33,613 nucleotides of DNA from NCBI GenBank assembly GCA_030038495.1, contig JASHOV010000143.1, forward strand, positions 1 to 33,613, read 5' to 3'. The notes beneath the pieces are model-generated. The model saw only the letters and a list, made by a program, of their open reading frames with translations, did no database searches and was not told where the DNA came from. Below, piece by piece: positions 20,973 to 32,202 of this stretch. Each line of letters starts with the position of its first letter. Position 1 is the first letter of the stretch. This stretch comes from Streptosporangiaceae bacterium. GTDB lineage: Bacteria; Actinomycetota; Actinomycetes; Streptosporangiales; Streptosporangiaceae. The position numbers and the translations under genes are program-made.

Positions 20973-21728
20973 TTACGCATCGTCTGGGTCGGGCTGGTAC
21001 CGGTATCCCATCCCCGGCTCGGTTAGCAGCCAGTGCGGGCGGGCCGAGTCGGGCTCCAGCTTGCGCCGCAGCTGCGCCATGTACAGGCGCAGGTTGCCGG
21101 TCGCATCGGCGTAGCCGGGCCCCCAGACCTCCGCCAGCAGCTGCTGCTGGCTCAGCAGCTTGCCCGGGTTGCGCAGCAGCACCTCGAGCAGGTGCCACTC
21201 GGTGGGCGTGAGCCGGATGTCACTGGTGTTTGCTGCACTGGTGTTTTCGGTACTGGCGGCGACCTCTTCGTCGCGGCCGGGGCGAGGCCTGGGCTGGCGG
21301 ATCACCCGCTTGGCGGCGAGGTCGACGACAAGGTCGCCCAGGCGCACCTGCGGGGCATCGTTGTCGGCGGACATCCGGCGGGTGACCGCGCGCATCCGCG
21401 CCAGCAGTTCGTCCATCCCGAACGGCTTGGTGACGTAGTCGTCCGCGCCCGCGTCGAGGGCCTCGACCTTGTCGGTGCTGTCGGCCCGGCCGGAGAGCAC
21501 GATGATCGGGGCATCGGTCCAGCCCCGCAGGCCGTGGATGACCTCAATACCGTCCAGGTCCGGCAGGCCCAGGTCCAGGATGACGAGGTCAGGCGGGTGC
21601 TTGGCGGCGAGCTCGAGCGCCTCGCTCGCATTCCCGGCGGTGTGCACCTCGTACTGTCGCACCCGAAGGTTGATGCGCAGAGCCCGCAGAATCTGCGGCT
21701 CGTCGTCGATCACCAGGACTGCGGTCAC
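20973..21728 (-). CDS. kdpE: KdpE-like OmpR-family response regulator (copy distal to kdpD)
   Basis: VTAVLVIDDEPQILRALRINLRVRQYEVHTAGNASEALELAAKHPPDLVILDLGLPDLDGIEVIHGLR...KLLSQQQLLAEVWGPGYADATGNLRLYMAQLRRKLE. GTG start at 21728 inferred by homology. Confidence 0.92.
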   Translation of the reverse strand: MTAVLVIDDEPQILRALRINLRVRQYEVHTAGNASEALELAAKHPPDLVILDLGLPDLDGIEVIHGLRGWTDAPIIVLSGRADSTDKVEALDAGADDYVTKPFGMDELLARMRAVTRRMSADNDAPQVRLGDLVVDLAAKRVIRQPRPRPGRDEEVAASTENTSAANTSDIRLTPTEWHLLEVLLRNPGKLLSQQQLLAEVWGPGYADATGNLRLYMAQLRRKLEPDSARPHWLLTEPGMGYRYQPDPDDA

Positions 21729-21798
21729 GTCACCACGCTGCCACGGCGGGCCCGCCGCAGGCCGGCGGAACGCCGGTACGCGCACCGGCGCTTCCGGG

Positions 21799-24477
21799 TC
21801 AACTCATCTCCTCGGTGCTGAGGAACGAGGTCCCCTGATGCTCCGGCGCCTGTCCGTCCGGGCGGGCCGGAGCCGGCACGGCCGGCAGGGACAGCGTCAT
21901 CGTCAGGCCGCCGCCCGGTGTCTCGTCTGGCTCCAGCGTGCCGCCCATCGCCTCGGTCAGCCCGCGGGACAGCGCCAGGCCGAGCCCGACCCCGGTGGTG
22001 TTGTCGGTGTCGCCGAGGCGCTGGAACGGCGCGAACATCTGGTTCCTCTGCTCGGCCGGGATGCCGGGTCCGTGGTCGATGATGCGCAGCTCCACCCGGT
22101 CGTGCAGTGAGCTGCCGGTCAGGACCGGGGGGACGCCGGGTGGCGCATACCGCAGCGCGTTGGCGGTCAGGTTGGCGACGACCCGCTCCAGGATGCCGGG
22201 ATCGACCGCGACTTCAGGCAGGTCATCGGGGATGTCCACGGTCACGGTCCGGCCGCCTGGCCCGAGATCATCCAGCGACCTGGCCACGATCTCGGACAAA
22301 TCGGTCGGCCGCGGGAAAACCGCGAGCGCGCCGGCCTGCAGGCGGCTCATGTCCAGCAGGTTGTCGACCAGGTGCGAGAGCTTGTCCAGCGACTCGTCCG
22401 CGGTCGCAAGCAGCTCGTCGTGATCCGCGGCATCCCATTCGATTTCAGGCGACCGCAGGCTCGTGACCGCCGCCTTGGCCGAGGCCAGCGGCGTGCGCAG
22501 ATCGTGGCTCACCGCCGCGAGCAGCGCAGTGCGCACCCGGTCCGCCTCCGCGATCGGCCGGGCGGCCTCGGCGGCGGCCGACAGCCTGCCCTGCTCCAGG
22601 GCGGCGGCGGCATAGGCGGCGAACGCGCCGAGCACGCGACGGTCGGTGGCAGGCAGCGCCCGGCCGCGCAGGGCCAGCACGAGCGAGTCGCTGATCGGCA
22701 TCTCGACGTCAGCGTCCTCGGGCCGGGAGACCGGCTGGTCGCCGGAGACCCCTACCGCCGACCACCGGCCGCCCCTGGCGGGCAGCGTGCCCCGCCGGGC
22801 CTGGCCGTCAGGGACCAGCGCTGCGTCTGGGTCGGAGCCGGTGCGTTCCAGCAGCGTGACCGATTCCATCCCGAACGCCTCGCGTACGCGGTCAAGGACC
22901 GCGGACAAAGCACGCTGGCCGCGCAGGATGCTGCCCGCTGTGGTCGCGAGCAGCTCCGACTCCGCGCCGGACCTGGCCGCCTGTTTTGTCCGCCGGGCCG
23001 CGGTGTCCACCACCGAGCTGACCACGATCCCGACCGCCACGAAGATCGCCAGCGCGAGAGCGTTGTTGGCCTGGGCGATCGTGAACTTGTGTATCGGCGG
23101 TATGAAGTAGTAGTTCAGCAGCAGCGAGCCGAAGACCGCGGCCAGGATCGCAGGGAAGAACCCGCCGACCAGTGCGACCGCGACCACCCCGGCCTGGAAG
23201 ACCAGCACCTCGGTGGTCAGGTTGACGCCACTGCGCATGGCGGCCAGTGCCAGCGTGAGCAGCGGCATCAGCACCAGCGCGAGGGCGTAGCCGGCCAGCT
23301 GGCGCTGCCTGGTCAGGCCCCCGCTGGCCCGCGGCAGCCCGCGGCCGCGGCCGACGTAGGAGTGGGTGACCATGTGTACGTCGATGTCGCCGGAGGCGCG
23401 CATCGTCCGCGCGCTCACGCCGGGCCCGGTGAGCAGCGATGCCAGCCAGCCGCGCCGGCTCACGCCGAGCACCAGCTGGGTCGCGTTCTCGGCCCGTGCG
23501 AACGTCAGCAGCGCCTCCGGCACGTTGTCGCCGACGATCTGGTGGTAGGTGCCGCCGAGGGACTCGGTGAGCCGTCGCTGGTTCGCGAGCGCGGCCGGGG
23601 ACGCGCCGGTCAGGCCGTCCGAGGTGGTCACGTGCACCGCGAGCAGGTCCCCGCCCGCCGACCTGGCCGCGATCCTGGCGGCTCGCCGGATGAGGGTGTC
23701 GCCCTCCGGGCCGCCGGTCAGCGCGACGACCACCCGCTCGCGGGCCTCCCAGGTGACGTGGATGTCGTGGGCTTCGCGATAGCGCTGCAGGCCCTCGTCC
23801 ACCTTGTCGGCCAGCCACAGCAGAGCCAGCTCGCGCAGCGCGGACAGGTTGCCGATGCGGAAGTAGTTGGTCAGCGCCGCATCGATCTTCTCGGCCTTGT
23901 AGATGTTGCCGTGCGCCATACGGCGCCGCAGCGCCTCCGGCGTCATGTCGACCAGCTCGACCTGGTCGGCGGCCCGCACGACGGCGTCGGGCACCGTCTC
24001 CCGCTGGGGCACGCCGGTGATCTTCTCGACGACGTCGTTCAGCGACTCGAGGTGCTGGATGTTGACGTTGGAGATCACGTCGATTCCGGCATCGAGCAGT
24101 TCGGCCACGTCCTGCCAGCGCTTCTCGTTCCTGGAGCCGGGCACGTTCGTGTGGGCGAACTCGTCAACCAGTGCCACGTCCGGCCCCCGGGCCAGCACGG
24201 CGTCGATGTCCATCTCCTCGAACGTCGTGCCGCGATAGGGCATCTTGGCCCGCGGGATGACCTCGAGGTCGTCGATCTGCTCGGCGGTGTGCGGGCGGCC
24301 GTGCGTCTCCACGAACGCGACCACGACGTCGGTGCCGCGCTCACGACGGCGATGGCCCTCGTTCAGCATGGCGAACGTCTTGCCGACGCCGGCCGCGCAG
24401 CCCAGGTAGATCCGCAGCTGACCCCTGCTGCCGGGCACGCGCGGTGCCGCGTAGTCCGCGAGACCCTCGTTCCCCAT
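21799..24477 (-). CDS. kdpD: Sensor histidine kinase KdpD
   Basis: MGNEGLADYAAPRVPGSRGQLRIYLGCAAGVGKTFAMLNEGHRR, DEFAHTNVPGSRNEKRWQDV, USP-like domain, TM region, AVSHDLRTPLASAKAAVTSLRS H-box and ATPase domain. I trimmed the ORF-track start (24924) to the ATG at 24477. Confidence 0.96.
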   Translation of the reverse strand: MGNEGLADYAAPRVPGSRGQLRIYLGCAAGVGKTFAMLNEGHRRRERGTDVVVAFVETHGRPHTAEQIDDLEVIPRAKMPYRGTTFEEMDIDAVLARGPDVALVDEFAHTNVPGSRNEKRWQDVAELLDAGIDVISNVNIQHLESLNDVVEKITGVPQRETVPDAVVRAADQVELVDMTPEALRRRMAHGNIYKAEKIDAALTNYFRIGNLSALRELALLWLADKVDEGLQRYREAHDIHVTWEARERVVVALTGGPEGDTLIRRAARIAARSAGGDLLAVHVTTSDGLTGASPAALANQRRLTESLGGTYHQIVGDNVPEALLTFARAENATQLVLGVSRRGWLASLLTGPGVSARTMRASGDIDVHMVTHSYVGRGRGLPRASGGLTRQRQLAGYALALVLMPLLTLALAAMRSGVNLTTEVLVFQAGVVAVALVGGFFPAILAAVFGSLLLNYYFIPPIHKFTIAQANNALALAIFVAVGIVVSSVVDTAARRTKQAARSGAESELLATTAGSILRGQRALSAVLDRVREAFGMESVTLLERTGSDPDAALVPDGQARRGTLPARGGRWSAVGVSGDQPVSRPEDADVEMPISDSLVLALRGRALPATDRRVLGAFAAYAAAALEQGRLSAAAEAARPIAEADRVRTALLAAVSHDLRTPLASAKAAVTSLRSPEIEWDAADHDELLATADESLDKLSHLVDNLLDMSRLQAGALAVFPRPTDLSEIVARSLDDLGPGGRTVTVDIPDDLPEVAVDPGILERVVANLTANALRYAPPGVPPVLTGSSLHDRVELRIIDHGPGIPAEQRNQMFAPFQRLGDTDNTTGVGLGLALSRGLTEAMGGTLEPDETPGGGLTMTLSLPAVPAPARPDGQAPEHQGTSFLSTEEMS

Positions 24478-24620
24478 AATAATTCCCTGCGGGTGCGATT
24501 CGGGGTCGGCAGTTAGCCGCCGATCTTGGGATGAATGCCCCTCTCCGCCCGAGGCTATGCCGTCGGTGGCCAGCCATGACCGGGCGGGGTGCACCCGGAG
24601 CTGCCGTTCCCCTTCTCCGC

Positions 24621-25340
24621 TCATGGCTGGTAGCGGTAGCCCATGCCGGGCTCGGTCAGCAGGTGGCGCGGCCGGGGCGGGTCGTCCTCGAGCTTCCTCC
24701 GCAGCCCGGCCATGTGGAATCGCAGGTAGTGGGTGCTGTCCACGGCGGCGGGCCCCCACAGGTCGGCAAGCAGCCGGGTGGCCGGGACGAGCTGGCCGGG
24801 GGAGCGCAGCAGCATCTCGAGCATCCGCCACTCGGTCTTGGTCAGCCGGACGGGCTCCGACTCGGCGCCGACCTCCGGGCCGGAACGCCGGACGACCGTC
24901 CGGGCGGCCAGGTCGATCGTGCAATTCCCGAGGCTGAAGACCTGCCGGCTGGATGGATGCGCGTCGCGCCGCAGGAGGGCGCGCAGCCGGGCCACGAGTT
25001 CATCCATCGAGAACGGCTTGGTGACGTAGTCGTCGGCCCCGGCGTCCAGCGCGCCGATCTTGTCGCCGGAGCCGGCCCGGCCGGAAAGCACGATCACGGG
25101 AACGGCCGACCAGACCCGGAGCTGTCTGATCACGTCGGTGCCGTCCAGGTCGGGCAGCCCCAGGTCGAGCAGCACGGCGTCCGGGGGTCGCCGTGCCGCC
25201 TCGACCAGGGCCTCCCGGCCAGCCGAGGCGGTGGTTACCTCGTAGCCCCGGGCGCGCAGATCAATCCGCAGCGCCCGGAGCAGCGCTGGCTCGTCCTCGA
25301 CGATGAGGACGCGGCCCGAATCAGACGGGGTACTGCTCAT
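24621..25340 (-). CDS. kdpE: KdpE-like response regulator (copy between kdpC and kdpD)
   Basis: MSSTPSDSGRVLIVEDEPALLRALRIDLRARGYEVTTASAGREALVEAARRPPDAVLLDLGLPDLDG...LLADLWGPAAVDSTHYLRFHMAGLRRKLEDDP. Overlaps the kdpC end by 20 bp. Confidence 0.93.
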   Translation of the reverse strand: MSSTPSDSGRVLIVEDEPALLRALRIDLRARGYEVTTASAGREALVEAARRPPDAVLLDLGLPDLDGTDVIRQLRVWSAVPVIVLSGRAGSGDKIGALDAGADDYVTKPFSMDELVARLRALLRRDAHPSSRQVFSLGNCTIDLAARTVVRRSGPEVGAESEPVRLTKTEWRMLEMLLRSPGQLVPATRLLADLWGPAAVDSTHYLRFHMAGLRRKLEDDPPRPRHLLTEPGMGYRYQP

Positions 25341-25998
25341 CGAGCGCGAGGTTCAGCAGCAGCACGTTGACCACCGGCTCGCCCAGGAATCCGAGCGTGC
25401 GACCGGTCGTGTACTTGCTCACCAGCGCCCGCACCTGGGCCGGGCTGATGTGCCTTGCGGCAGCGACCCGGTCCACCTGGATGGCGGCGTTGGCCGGGGT
25501 GATGTCGGGGTCCAGACCGGAGCCCGACGCCGTGACCGCGTCGGCGGGGATCTTCGAGATCGGCACGTGGTCGAACGCGGAGATCTGCGCCTGCCGCTGC
25601 TTGACGAACTGGATCTGGGCCGGATTATTCGGGCCGAGGTTCGACGCGGAGGAGTACAGCGGATTGCAGCCGTAATTGTTCGGCCCGGTGTTCTCGACGT
25701 AATACCTGCCGTTCTTCAGCGTGCCCAGCGACCAGTCCACGATCGCGAACGAGGGCCGCGGCTGGAAGTACTGGGCCAGTGGCTGGCCCTTGGCGTTCAC
25801 GAACTCCTGGCAGAGCAGGCTGGAGCCGACGGTCCGGCCCTTGTAGCTGACCAGCGATCCGTTGGCCTGGTGGTTGAACGCCACCTGCGCGATCCCCCAC
25901 ACGACCACCGGGTAGATGATCCCGGTGATCACGGTAAAGATCAGGAGCGCGCGCAGCCCGGCTATGTGCTGCCGTACGAAACTGGGTAGACGATTCAT
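25321..25998 (-). CDS. kdpC: Potassium-transporting ATPase subunit KdpC
   Basis: FTVITGIIYPVVVWGIAQVAFNHQANGSLV...YFQPRPS...ASGSGLDPDITPANAAIQVDRVAAAR. Confidence 0.97.
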   Translation of the reverse strand: MNRLPSFVRQHIAGLRALLIFTVITGIIYPVVVWGIAQVAFNHQANGSLVSYKGRTVGSSLLCQEFVNAKGQPLAQYFQPRPSFAIVDWSLGTLKNGRYYVENTGPNNYGCNPLYSSASNLGPNNPAQIQFVKQRQAQISAFDHVPISKIPADAVTASGSGLDPDITPANAAIQVDRVAAARHISPAQVRALVSKYTTGRTLGFLGEPVVNVLLLNLALDEQYPV

Positions 25999-26005
25999 GT
26001 TCAGA

Positions 26006-28132
26006 TCACCGGAATCCAGGAATGTTCATGATGATGAGGTCGATTGCCTTGATCCCGATGAACGGGATGATCAGGCCGCCGACGCCGTAGATCCACAGAT
26101 TCCTGCGGAGCATTTGCGTTGCCGACGACGGCCGGTACCTGACGCCGCGCAGGGCCAGCGGGATCAGCGCCACGATGATCAGCGCGTTGAAGATGATCGC
26201 CGAGGTAATCGCCGACTTGGGACTGTGCAGGCCCATGATGTTGAGGTAGTGCAGTCCGTGGAAGACGCCCTCGAACATCGCGGGAATGATCGCGAAGTAC
26301 TTGGCCACGTCGTTGGCGATGGAGAAGGTCGTCAGCGCGCCGCGGGTGATAAGCAGCTGCTTGCCGATCTCCACGATCTCGATGAGCTTCGTCGGGTTGG
26401 AGTCCAGGTCCACCATGTTCCCGGCCTCCTTGGCGGCCGAGGTCCCTGTGTTCATAGCCACGCCGACGTCGGCCTGGGCCAGGGCCGGGGCGTCGTTGGT
26501 GCCGTCCCCGGTCATCGCGACCAGCTTGCCGCCTTCCTGCTCCTTCTTGATCAGCGCCATCTTGTCTTCCGGCGTCGCCTCGGCGAGGAAGTCGTCCACG
26601 CCGGACTCGTCCGCGATGGCCTTGGCGGTTAGCGGGTTGTCGCCGGTGATCATGACGGTGCGGATGCCCATCTTGCGCATCTCCGCGAACCGCTCGGCGA
26701 TGCCCTCCTTGACGATGTCCTTCAGGTAGATGACGCCGAGCGCGCGGGCGGGCTTGCCTGCCTCGTGCTCGGCCACCACCAGCGGGGTACCGCCGACGCC
26801 GGAGATGCCGTCGACCATGCCGGTCAGTTCCTCCGGCGGTGTGCCGCCGTTGTCGCGCACCCACTGGGCCACGGACGCGGCTGCGCCCTTGCGCACCTGC
26901 CGGCCATCGGCCAGGTCGATGCCGCTCATCCTGGTCTGCGCGGTGAACTCCACGAACTCTGCGTGCTGCAGCTCGCCCTCGGGCCGCTCGCGCAGGCCGT
27001 ACTTCTCCTTGGCGAGCACCACGATCGAGCGGCCCTCGGGGGTGTAGTCGGCCATGCTGGACAGCTGCGCCGCGCTGGCGAGCTCGGCGTCCGTGACCCC
27101 GTTGACCGGGAGGAACTCGGTGGCCTGCCGGTTGCCGATGGTGATCGTGCCGGTCTTGTCCAGCAGCAGGGTGTTCACGTCGCCCGCGGCCTCGACCGCG
27201 CGGCCGGACATGGCCAGCACGTTGCGCTGGACCAGCCTGTCCATGCCGGCGATGCCGATCGCCGACAGCAGCGCGCCGATCGTGGTCGGGATCAGCGCGA
27301 CCAGCAGGGCCACCAGGATGACCAGGGTCTGCGGGGCGCCCGAGTAGTAGGCCATCGGCTGCAGCGTGATGACGGCCAGCATGAAAATGATCGTCAGCGA
27401 CGCGAGCAGGATGTTCAGCGCGATCTCGTACGCCGTCTTCTGCCGCATGACCACCTCGACCAGGGCGATCATCCGGTCGATGAAGGTCTCGCCCGGCTTG
27501 GACGTGATCTTCACGATGATCTGGTCGGACAGCACCTTGGTGCCGCCGGTGACCGCGGACCGGTCGCCGCCTGACTCCCGGATGACCGGGGCCGACTCGC
27601 CGGTAATGGCCGACTCGTCCACCGAGGCGATGCCCTCGACCACGTCGCCGTCGCCGGGGATGATCTCGCCGGCCTCGACCACCACGTGATCGCCGAGCGT
27701 GAGCTGGGTGCCGGGGACTTCCTCCTCGGTGAGCTGAGCCTGGCCCGGCGACCAGTTGACCAGCCGCCGTGCCACGGTCTCCCGCTTGGTCTTGCGCAGC
27801 GTCTCCGCCTGGGCCTTGCCCCGGCCCTCCGCCACCGCCTCGGCCAGGTTGGCGAACACGACGGTTAGCCACAGCCAGACCACGATCGTCCAGTTGAAGA
27901 CGCGGCTGCTGCCGGGTCCGGTGACCGCCGTGTAGATGCACAGGAGCGCGCCGACCTCGACAACGAACATCACCGGGTTCTTGATCTGGACCCGCGGGTC
28001 CAGCTTCTTGAACGCGTCAGGAAGCGACCGCCAGATCATCTTGGGGTCAAGGAGCCCCCCGCCGATGCGGCCATTCGCCGCCCCGGCGTCACGGCCTCCG
28101 GCCGGGGCCTCCGGCTGGGTTGTTATAGCCAT
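26006..28132 (-). CDS. kdpB: Potassium-transporting P-type ATPase subunit KdpB
   Basis: P-type ATPase motif [55 protein letters not shown]. Confidence 0.98.
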
Positions 28133-28133
28133 C

Positions 28134-29807
28134 TCAGTGCAGTCCTTCTGCGATCGGGCCCAGGGCGAGTGCGGGGAAGTAAGTCAGGCCGACGAGTATG
28201 AGGATCACGGCGACCACCATGCCGACGAACAGCGGCGTCCTGGTGTCGATCGTGCCCGGGCCCAGGGGAACCGGTTCTCGCTGCCGGGCCAGCGAGCCGG
28301 CCAGACCGAGCGCGAAGATCTCCGGCCCGAACCGGCCGAATAGCATCACGAAGCCACCGAGGGTCTGGTACCACATCGAGCCCGAGCCAAGGCCGGCGAA
28401 CGCGGAGCCGTTGTTATTGGCCATCGAGGCGAACGCGTAGACCACCTCGGTCAGGCCGTGCGGCCCGGGGTTGAAGATCTGCCGCTGGCCGGTCGCGGTG
28501 CCGATTGACAATCCGGCCGCGGTAAGAATCACCACCGGCAGCGTCAGGAAGTACAACGCCGCGTATTTCATCTCGGTCGGCCGGATCTTCTTGCCCAGGT
28601 ACTCCGGCGTCCGGCCGACCATCAGGCCGGCCACGAAGACCGTCACGATGGCCAGGATCAGGATGCCGTACATGCCGGCCCCGACGCCGCCGGGCGCGAT
28701 CTCGCCGAGCGCGATGTCGAACAGGGCGATACCGCCGCCGAACGGTGTCAGCGAATCATGGAAGCAGTTGACCGCGCCGGTGGATGTCACCGTGGTACTC
28801 GCCGCGAACAACGAGCAGCCGGGCGCGCCGAACCTCGTTTCCACGCCCTCCGTGGCGCCGTTCGCGAGCTTCGCGGCGGTGGCACCGCCGATGGCATAGT
28901 GCGCCTCGAAGAAGCTGATGCCGCCGACGGCCATCATCCAGATGATCACCATGACGGCGAGCAGCGCGTAGCCCTGCCTGTTGTCCTTGACCATCTTGCC
29001 GAAGGCGCGCGGGGTCGCGAACGGGATCAGCAGCAGGATGAAGATCGTGAACAAGTTCGTGAACGGGTTCGGGTTCTCGAACGGGTGCGCGGAGTTGGTG
29101 TTGAAGAACCCGCCTCCGTTGTTCCCCATGTCCTTGATGACTTCCATCGAGCCGACCGGGCCGCCGGGGATCGTCTGGTGCGCGCCGGACAGCGTGGTGT
29201 AGGTCTCGTAGGGGTGGAAGTTCATGATCGAGCCGCCGGCGATCAGGATGAGGCCGCCGACGAGGGCCAGCGGGATCAGCAGGCGGAACACGCACCGGGT
29301 GACGTCCACCCAGAAGTTGCCCAGCTTGTCGGTGTGGGACCGGGTGAAGCCGCGGATCATGGCGATCGCGACCACGATGCCCACGGCCGCCGACATGAAC
29401 TGCTGCACGGTCAGGCCGGTCATCTGGGTCAGGTAGCCCATCGTGGACTCGCCGGCGTAGTTCTGCCAGTTCGTGTTCGTCACGAAGGACGCCGCGGTGT
29501 TCCACGCCGTGTCCGGCGGCACGTTGGGCATGCCCTCGCTCAGCAGCAGGAAGTGCTGCAGCCGCTCGATGCCGTACAGGAACAGCACGCTGATCGCCGA
29601 GAAGGCCAGGATGCTCTTGACGTAGGTGCTCCACTTCTGGTCGGCCTTGGAGTCGATCCCCATCAGCCGGTAGATGAAGCGCTCTACCTTCCAGTCCCTG
29701 TCGGAGGTGAAGATCTTCGCCATGTAGTTGCCGAGCGGTATGTAGCACGCGGCAAGGGCGAGGACGAGCAGGCCGAACTGCAGCCAGCCCGCGGTTCCGC
29801 TACTCAT
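28134..29807 (-). CDS. kdpA: Potassium-transporting ATPase subunit KdpA
   Basis: [71 protein letters not shown] selectivity-filter-type motifs. Confidence 0.98.
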
Positions 29808-29897
29808 CTAGAACCTCTCAGGGAGCACGAGTGCCACGAATAGGTACACAGTCAGCAGGAATCCGCCGATCAGGCCGATCCAGTTCTCAGCGCTCAA
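29808..29897 (-). CDS. kdpF: KdpF small membrane subunit (29 aa)
   Basis: Not in ORF track. Minus strand TTG at 29897: (M)SAENWIGLIGGFLLTVYLFVALVLPERF*. The ERF C-terminus and position directly before kdpA are typical of KdpF. An alternative in-frame TTG lies 9 bp upstream. Confidence 0.9.
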   Translation of the reverse strand: MSAENWIGLIGGFLLTVYLFVALVLPERF

Positions 29898-29976
29898 AGC
29901 GCTCAACCCCCTTGACGATGAGCCAGAGCACGCCGAAGGCGAGGATGGTCAGGCCGATATAGAGCAGGTCGTACAT
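29887..29976 (-). CDS. Putative 29-aa single-TM peptide upstream of kdpF
   Basis: Not in ORF track. Minus strand ATG at 29976 with GGAGG Shine-Dalgarno: MYDLLYIGLTILAFGVLWLIVKGVERFER*. Overlaps kdpF by 11 bp. Confidence 0.75.
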   Translation of the reverse strand: MYDLLYIGLTILAFGVLWLIVKGVERFER

Positions 29977-30020
29977 GGTGTCCTCCAGCGGACGCCTCGG
30001 AAGTGCGTTACGTGAGACGA

Positions 30021-30168: not shown

Positions 30169-32202
30169 CTACCTCGCTGTCCTCCCAGCCAGCCCCGTGG
30201 TTCCGGCCGGCCCCGTGGTTCCGGCGAGCACCGTGGTTCCGGCCAGCACCGTGGTTCCGGCTGGCACCTCGCGTTCGGCCGGAACCGGGACCCGGGCCGG
30301 GAACGGTCGTGTCGGCAGCGAGATGGCCGCCTCCAGGGTCCCGAGGCGGCGCAGGAACGCGAACGCGAACCAGGTCGGCACCCAGGCAATGCTGCGCCAC
30401 TGGCGGTGCCGGACCGCCAGCGGCAGGGACACGGCCAGCGGCAGCGCCCCGCCCGCGACGTAGAGCAGCGCCAGCACGCCGATGCTGGAGCGGTACCCGG
30501 GGTTGGTGAGCGCGAGCTCGGCCATGAAGATCGGCGCGACCATCCCGGCCTGCAGGGAGAACCAGGAGAAACTGCGGCGCATCGTCCACAGCCAGACCCG
30601 CGGGCCGGCCGAGCCGCTGCGTACCGGCTGGTGCTTGGCATAGGTGTGGAACCCGCCCCGCGCCCACCGGGTTCGCTGCTCGACGAACTCGGCGGCGCTG
30701 GTCGGCACGTCCTCGTAGCAGCGGACGCGCGGATCGAGCACCGACCGCAGGCCCATCCGGCCCAGCTGCATGGTGAGGTCGTTGTCCTCGCCGTTCATGC
30801 CCACCGGATACCCCCCGATGGCCACCACCGGCTCGCGCCGGAACGCGGTGTACGTGCCGGGAATCACCACGACTCCGTCCACCAGGCTCTGGCCGAGCCG
30901 GGCGAACCGGAACTGAAACAGCGCCTCCAGCGTCCGCAGCCGGTGGAACCAGGTCGTGTTGTCGGTGCGCGGCTCCTCCATCGCGCCCACCGAGCCGATG
31001 ACCGGATTGGCGAACCACGGCACGCTGTAGACCAGCGCGTCCGCACCCATCACGCAGTCGGCGTCGATCCTGACCACCACGTCCGCGGACGTCAGCGCGA
31101 GGGCCCGGTTCAGCGCCATCGACTGGCCTGCATTGGGGGCGGTCAGCACCTGACCGGCGGCATGCTGGAGGCGAGCCACGGCCGCCCGCGCGATCGCGGC
31201 GGTGCCGTCGGTCGAACCGTCGTTGGAGACGATCACGCGGACCGGGCCGGCGTACCGGGCCGCGGCCGCGTCGACCGAGGCCAGCAGCCTGGCCACGTTC
31301 TCCGCCTCGTTGTAGGCGGGCACGATGATGTCGACCGGCGGCCGGTTCCGGCCGGGAACGGGCAGCCTGGGCGCCAGCCACCACAGCAGGCAGAGAGGCG
31401 CGAACATCGCCGCAAAGAGCAGGCTGATCGCGTACAGCGGCAGGAACAGCTGCCAGGTTCCCGTGCTGCCGGACACCGTCGAGGTGAATGCGTACGTGCA
31501 GATGATCAGCGAGATCGCGCAGGCGATCGCGCAGCCGGCGAGCACGCTGTCCCAGATCCAGCGCGGCCGCCGGCGCGGAACCGTGGTACTGCGCGGCAGG
31601 ATGAAGCCGGTGACCGTCATCCTGGTCACGACGATGCCGCCGATCAGCAGGTTCACCAGCGTGGCCTCGATCCCGAACGGCGCGACCAGCCAGCCGGTCG
31701 CCACCCCGGCGACGATCATGAGCGCGTGCGCCAGCACCGACATGGCCACGTAGAGGACCGCGTGCGACAGCATCACGAGCCTGCGGCCCGGCCCGGCCCG
31801 GCAGACCAGGGATATGCCGATGATGTAGGCCACCGCGAGGAACAGGGTGGCCGGCCGCAGCCGGGCGACGTAGCCGTTGACGCTGGCCGGGTCGCGGGTA
31901 ATCGCGACCGCGACGGCCCTGACCGCCGCAGCGTACGCCTGCGGCAGACCCGGCCGCCGCAGGCCGACGAACACCAGCCCAAGCGCGGCGCTGATGCCGA
32001 GGAAGGCCCAGGTGCGCGGCCGGTGCCGCGAGGTCGGGACCGGCCGCGGAATCAGCACGACCGCGCGTCCGTCGCCGGAATCCTCCGCGCTGTCCGCGCG
32101 CTGCGGCAGAATGCAGATGGCGGTCATGACGACCAGCAGCATGACGGTCATGCCGAGCAGTGTTATGTCCACGAAATGGACTCCTGATGGCTTTAAACGC
32201 AA
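30169..32202 (-). CDS. GT2 family membrane glycosyltransferase (processive polysaccharide synthase-like)
   Basis: VDIIVPAYNEAENVARLLASV, VSNDGSTDGT, VVRIDADCVMG, GEDNDLTMQLGRMG, EQRTRWARGGFHTYAKH (Q/RxxRW motif), flanking TM helices. Confidence 0.92.
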   Translation of the reverse strand: MRLKPSGVHFVDITLLGMTVMLLVVMTAICILPQRADSAEDSGDGRAVVLIPRPVPTSRHRPRTWAFLGISAALGLVFVGLRRPGLPQAYAAAVRAVAVAITRDPASVNGYVARLRPATLFLAVAYIIGISLVCRAGPGRRLVMLSHAVLYVAMSVLAHALMIVAGVATGWLVAPFGIEATLVNLLIGGIVVTRMTVTGFILPRSTTVPRRRPRWIWDSVLAGCAIACAISLIICTYAFTSTVSGSTGTWQLFLPLYAISLLFAAMFAPLCLLWWLAPRLPVPGRNRPPVDIIVPAYNEAENVARLLASVDAAAARYAGPVRVIVSNDGSTDGTAAIARAAVARLQHAAGQVLTAPNAGQSMALNRALALTSADVVVRIDADCVMGADALVYSVPWFANPVIGSVGAMEEPRTDNTTWFHRLRTLEALFQFRFARLGQSLVDGVVVIPGTYTAFRREPVVAIGGYPVGMNGEDNDLTMQLGRMGLRSVLDPRVRCYEDVPTSAAEFVEQRTRWARGGFHTYAKHQPVRSGSAGPRVWLWTMRRSFSWFSLQAGMVAPIFMAELALTNPGYRSSIGVLALLYVAGGALPLAVSLPLAVRHRQWRSIAWVPTWFAFAFLRRLGTLEAAISLPTRPFPARVPVPAEREVPAGTTVLAGTTVLAGTTGPAGTTGLAGRTAR
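30190..30261. repeat. 18-bp tandem repeat, 4 units, in the 3' end of the GT2 gene (AGTTVL-like hexapeptide)
   Basis: CCAGCCCCGTGGTTCCGG / CCGGCCCCGTGGTTCCGG / CGAGCACCGTGGTTCCGG / CCAGCACCGTGGTTCCGG. Confidence 0.9.

Follow-up and report, generated by a model that had tools for sequence, protein, structure and literature searches.

A conserved one-helix protein encoded at the head of the kdp operon, a probable lineage-specific fifth subunit of the Kdp potassium pump

The kdp operon in the window, by which we mean the whole 33,613-nt stretch of Streptosporangiaceae DNA that was analysed, raises the question of whether the bases preceding kdpF encode a further component of the potassium pump. 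The E. coli enzyme KdpFABC, known from cryo-EM (PMC6255902, PMC12629597), is the textbook pump and is described as having four subunits. The initial annotation had claimed that a 29-codon membrane peptide with its own ribosome-binding site lies upstream of kdpF, and we located this reading frame, to which we give the provisional name Z (kdpZ-like), in the following setting.

29982..29986, minus strand: ribosome-binding site GGAGG of Z, ending 5 nt before the ATG
29887..29976, minus strand: Z, ATG start, 29 codons plus stop, MYDLLYIGLTILAFGVLWLIVKGVERFER
29968..29970, minus strand: Asp3 codon of Z, a near-invariant acidic residue that co-varies with Arg82 of KdpA
29889..29906, minus strand: two tandem copies of TTGAGCGCT, which form the two Glu-Arg codon pairs of the Z tail
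29887..29897, minus strand: 11-bp overlap of Z and kdpF, with the TGA of Z inside the GCT-GAG codons of kdpF
29808..29897, minus strand: kdpF, TTG start, 29 codons plus stop (PF09604, E 2e-7)
28134..29807, minus strand: kdpA, channel-like subunit, 557 aa (PF03814, E 5.9e-215)
29562..29576, minus strand: KdpA codons 78-82 (Tyr-Gly-Ile-Glu-Arg); Tyr78 and Arg82 form the predicted docking site for Z, where the second transmembrane helix ends
26006..28132, minus strand: kdpB, P-type ATPase subunit, 708 aa (PF00122, PF00702)
25321..25998, minus strand: kdpC, 225 aa (PF02669)
21799..24924, minus strand: kdpD, sensor kinase (PF02702, PF13493, PF00512, PF02518)
20973..21785, minus strand: kdpE, response regulator (PF00072, PF00486)

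Since kdpA, kdpB, kdpC, kdpD and kdpE were all recognized downstream by Pfam, the window carries a full Z-F-A-B-C-D-E operon. The peptide that had been proposed as KdpF matches PF09604 at 31.2 bits against a cut-off of 21.2, and its stop codon directly abuts the kdpA ATG at 29807. Regarding Z itself, a single transmembrane helix is predicted, with Asp3 at its N-terminal end and Lys/Arg at its C-terminal end; the window's Z had no Pfam match and no match to the NCBIfam KdpF model. Adjoining the operon, an 18-bp tandem repeat of approximately four copies (window 30188-30287) occupies the 3' end of a glycosyltransferase-2 open reading frame (30169-32202, minus strand).

Reading frames of this kind were found upstream of kdpF/kdpA in Actinomycetota, Alpha- and Betaproteobacteria, Acidobacteriota, Chloroflexota, Deinococcota and Bacillota, and in public kdpA loci of Actinomycetota, Alphaproteobacteria, Chloroflexota and Acidobacteriota a Z-like frame precedes kdpF almost throughout. 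Conservation next to kdpF in relatives, the absence of which would have refuted the proposal according to the initial annotation, was observed across at least six phyla. The members are mostly 27 aa long, start with M-x-Asp and end with [DE]-[RK]-L, and Asp3 reached at least 90% within the alignment of 54 diverse members from which a profile was built. This profile scored at least 8 bits upstream of most of 375 kdpA genes versus approximately 1 in 1131 shuffled upstream regions. By group, the positive loci were 76/108 in Pseudomonadota, 63/86 in Actinomycetota, 42/46 in Chloroflexota and 20/31 in Acidobacteriota, together with 79/79 in the "named" set, which was retrieved by similarity to the window's KdpA and is therefore biased toward near relatives. 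None of the 54 members exceeded a curated NCBIfam cut-off, fell consistently into a Pfam family or matched a PDB chain.

In whole genomes, Z is nearly exclusive to kdp. Across 349 Pseudomonadota genomes, all 58 matches at E<=0.001 were located at kdp heads; in the sole matching genome without a listed kdpA (G212), kdpF adjoins Z at 0.3 kb from the contig end. Eight further genomes each contained a single strong match, and matches above 1e-3 among relatives of the window lay within larger reading frames and seem to be fortuitous. An exception from another phylum is an orphan Z-kdpF pair that is not followed by kdpA (L378:1183-1372, G021 contig 173); it may be what is left of an operon, an artificial join in the assembly or a pair that exists on its own. 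A chance open reading frame as the explanation of Z was ruled out by the shuffled controls, this linkage and the selection described below.

The family is patchy in its distribution. Z was absent from the Enterobacterales examined (E. coli, Klebsiella, Proteus and Arsenophonus), operons with a Pseudomonas-type KdpF and the Lactobacillales examined, as well as from Halobacterium and the cyanobacterial and Acinetobacter records examined, and viral contigs yielded no relatives of the Bacillota members. Over the KdpA tree (354 rows), Z presence changes to absence or back at least 13 times, and a scan of KdpA columns was performed between Z-bearing and Z-lacking systems. Residues 82 and 78 ranked highest; they are separated by a single helical turn, where the second transmembrane helix ends. 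E. coli KdpA has Phe78 and Leu82, and the window's KdpA has Tyr78 and Arg82. Over 347 rows, phi was 0.96 for residue 82 and 0.85 for residue 78, with the next column at 0.55, and among the columns of Z, position 3 scored 0.72 and the next 0.18. Arg82 accompanied an acidic residue at Z position 3 in 238 of 240 rows and was missing in two; where this position was non-acidic, Arg82 was missing in 31 of 31 rows and present in none. The latter rows include Nocardia and Mycobacteriaceae, which keep Z with Val or Ile at position 3 and have Leu or Ala at KdpA 82. Mycobacteriales thus retain Z though both partners of the pair have been lost, and some members of the family can accordingly do without it.

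Because related sequences inflate such covariation figures, phylogenetically independent pairs were used, of which 8.5 were for and 0.2 against the association in the uncurated data (median p 0.008) and 8.5 for and 0 against (p 0.004) after eight hand-read loci were added and L267 was left out, a curation that followed sight of the Arg82 rule. The Z-bearing rows alone offered two independent contrasts only in the tree. In unguided mutual information rankings (APC or normalised; Z against KdpA or KdpB), the pair of Z position 3 and KdpA 82 was not on top, because both columns are very conserved, and these rankings gave no usable contact map. Arg82 was kept in 7 of 70 Z-negative rows, including L269, which has a divergent Z on reading, L372, which is a second kdp copy, and L267, which has neither Z nor kdpF; the four from Acidobacteriota lack Tyr78. 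In the Acidobacteriota loci L186, L189 and L196, which have no Z and carry KdpA Arg82 without Tyr78, a different and longer hydrophobic open reading frame was noted before kdpF, and it is possibly a replacement partner.

The rule was also applied to 13 plasmid-borne or mis-filed operons from outside the data in which it was found, each scored by KdpA residue 82 alone, and it was correct in all 13. In each of the nine operons with Arg82 (Streptomyces, Phenylobacterium, Subdoligranulum, Niallia, Lichenicola, Azospirillum brasilense, Listeria innocua pLI100, Bacillus badius and Deinococcus ficus), a helix bearing an acidic residue close to its beginning was found upstream, and no such helix was seen in the four non-Arg operons, namely, Synechocystis (386 nt upstream only), a Listeria chromosome, Arsenophonus and Lacticaseibacillus paracasei. 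The Niallia member was missed by the profile (2 bits) and was pointed to only by Arg82.

Considering the covariation together with the correct calls in unseen operons, it is most probable that Z, a small membrane protein with one helix, forms a lineage-specific fifth subunit of the Kdp pump (KdpZFABC); an Asp3-Arg82 contact would dock it on the second transmembrane helix of KdpA. The initial annotation had left the choice between a second, unannotated micro-subunit and a regulator, and its proposal gains support from conservation in at least six phyla beside kdpF, purifying selection and the covariation with KdpA 82. A regulator of KdpD or of another membrane protein outside the pump, a role reported for the KdpF peptide upon overproduction in mycobacteria, would fit the presence of kdpD in the same operon in the window and the description of membrane peptides, including KdpF, as possible regulators of sensor kinases in PMC3618439. 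However, the strongest covariation of Z was with KdpA, in comparisons that covered KdpA and KdpB, and whole clades in which KdpA lacks Arg82 also lack Z. Since the covariation favours a subunit over a regulator, we regard a regulator in place of a subunit as unlikely; regulation may be an additional role of Z.

Z is also constrained as a protein. When substitutions in Z were counted on the kdpA tree, Nocardia showed 42 non-synonymous and 71 synonymous changes against an expected non-synonymous share of 71% (p 6e-14, implied omega approximately 0.24), and the window's clade showed 111 and 73 (p 3.5e-4, omega approximately 0.59), the weaker constraint arising from the interchange of hydrophobic residues. 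Shifted frames of Z showed no comparable constraint, and the dN/dS check that had been suggested for the upstream peptide thus returned purifying selection in both groups. In addition, the sequence of Z is retained when the gene order changes: L320 and L324 have Z between kdpF and kdpA (F-Z-A), Deinococcus ficus L399 has it between kdpB and kdpF (B-Z-F-A-C), and L376 has it between kdpF and kdpB (F-Z-B-C-A), with an overlap of Z and the kdpB start. The rearranged order kdpF-Z-kdpB-kdpC-kdpA was seen in both L376 and L377, which are relatives of the window's genus.

The junction with kdpF was also compared across loci. The 11-bp overlap that had been claimed for the window is exact, and the second copy of TTGAGCGCT also contains the kdpF start. 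The two in-frame TTG starts that the repeat had been said to create for kdpF stand on unequal footing: the repeat is real, and the downstream TTG is the one conserved in relatives. The upstream TTG, which would give a 32-aa KdpF, is present only where the Val codon of Z before ERFER is GTT and not GTC, a minority of the window's clade, and it is therefore a by-product; as an alternative start of kdpF it was rejected, being unconserved in relatives. An overlap of 4 nt was the commonest (57 of 119 loci), one of 11 nt was seen in 23 of 119, and a short gap of 2-14 nt takes the place of the overlap in many operons. In most relatives, Z ends in ...CTG-TGA and kdpF begins with GTG, which gives the 4-nt overlap, whereas the junction in the window's clade reads ..TTTGAGCGCTGA or ..CTTGAGCGCTGA and kdpF begins with TTG, which gives the 11-nt overlap. 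If a single nucleotide were lost at this junction, the TTG start of kdpF and the additional Glu-Arg tail of Z would arise together in a single step. The overlap probably couples translation of the two genes, which would lead to matched amounts of their products; such coupling is not central to the proposal, given the gaps in many operons and the interchangeable gene order.

These overlaps, a good Shine-Dalgarno sequence before Z in most loci and the mapped start site of M. smegmatis, which at 120 nt before the kdpF GTG leaves room for a leader (PMC5401905), would also suit a cis-acting element that works by being translated, opening the kdpF start or coupling it to Z, and whose peptide is itself inert. 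We consider this very unlikely, because the amino-acid sequence is conserved across phyla with omega below 1, residue 3 co-varies with KdpA, the gap of 2-14 nt separates the genes in many operons, and Z may follow kdpF or kdpB instead, gene-order swaps that are not the behaviour of a pure kdpF leader. The stretch before kdpF has previously been described as a 120-nt 5' UTR in M. smegmatis (PMC5401905) and as a structured UTR of approximately 100 nt in Caulobacter. In the Mycobacteriaceae loci L011 and L057, Z starts 80 nt before kdpF, and to judge from these relatives the M. smegmatis UTR would contain Z, such that a stretch formerly called a long 5' untranslated region would be explained as coding.

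KdpF (PF09604, TIGR02115) resembles Z in its length of approximately 29 aa, single transmembrane helix, presence in the same operon, usual adjacency and probable role in the complex, whereas it is present in E. coli, where Z is absent, and the conserved residues of Z (Asp3 and C-terminal [DE]-R-L) are different. The origin of Z as a duplicated KdpF, to which the shared length, single helices and Glu-Arg-Leu/Phe ends in Actinomycetota might point, was rejected as highly improbable, since there is no profile similarity between the two (hhalign probability 0.7%, below the 3.2% of a reversed control) and in most loci each of the two HMMs picks out a different one of the adjacent genes.

With Z taken as a subunit of the pump, the following arrangement may be proposed. 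The kdp operon would yield Z as its first product, and Z would cross the membrane once. It has no basic residues at positions 1-6 and has them at positions 22 and 26, a charge pattern that, under the positive-inside rule, places the N-terminus outside and the positively charged C-terminus inside. KdpA consists of four M1-pore-M2 repeats (PMC6255902), and residue 82, which ends the first M1 approximately 30 residues before the first filter stretch, is expected on the outer side; the two charges would therefore meet at the outer membrane face. Near the first pore loop, where the second transmembrane helix of KdpA has its outer end, Asp3 would form a pair with Arg82 that Tyr78 supports, and by neutralising a buried arginine it would lock Z onto KdpA and stabilise or tune the channel subunit. 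The simplest reading is that a docking salt bridge would set Z against KdpA beside the pore entrance; such binding may influence assembly, stability, affinity or gating, or serve as protection. In a large part of bacteria, covering at least six phyla, the pump is probably a five-subunit KdpZFABC complex in which the Asp3-Arg82 salt bridge anchors Z at the outer end of the second KdpA helix, next to the first pore loop; the E. coli enzyme with its four subunits would then represent a derived or alternative form.

The E. coli complex has the same KdpA, KdpB, KdpC and KdpF core and operon as the Z-bearing systems and differs in its KdpA residues Leu82 and Phe78 and in the absence of Z, which E. 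coli either lost or never had, and work in E. coli could therefore not show a fifth subunit. To our knowledge, the structures of KdpFABC are all from E. coli, and we found no structure of a Kdp complex from any Z-bearing species. If the present proposal is true, a subunit has been missed, which would change the purification and study of the pump in most other bacteria, and the single charge pair Asp3-Arg82 is open to simple mutant tests. One-helix accessory proteins on large membrane complexes have precedents in CydX and AcrZ (PMC4325964, PMC7267776), although these belong to different complexes and Z has no Pfam or NCBIfam sequence match.

An operon with the order kdpZYABCXDE is mentioned for Clostridium acetobutylicum in a passage of PMC5401905 that cites Treuner-Lange (1997). 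Its kdpZ, like Z, precedes the gene in the kdpF position of a Bacillota kdp operon, and Bacillota loci in the present study carry Z; by description and gene position, it may be a member of the same family. The products of orfZ and orfY of this species are reportedly hydrophobic peptides, and orfZ is said to be small. The Alicyclobacillus operon kdpZFABCN is similar to that of C. acetobutylicum. In the open-access literature searched, we found no report of the whole Z family or of a contact with KdpA. The designation Z provides a name for a gene that annotation has omitted or mislabelled: the RefSeq protein WP_212667346.1 (Mycetohabitans, 34 aa, "potassium ABC transporter ATPase") is the Z gene at L115:993-1097, which overlaps kdpF, and the RefSeq name is misleading because a protein of this size is neither an ABC transporter nor an ATPase.

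Two variants of the locus were also observed. In L007, L063, L065, L074-L076, L080 and L085, Z bears a polar, mostly acidic C-terminal tail of 15-25 residues. In the Acidobacteriota loci L188 and L195, a third short open reading frame with one predicted helix (e.g., VNVIYAVGSSGIGLLVIYLLYRFGKKEGAA) lies between Z and kdpF, approximately 80-230 bases before kdpA, and some kdp operons may accordingly encode three micro-proteins.
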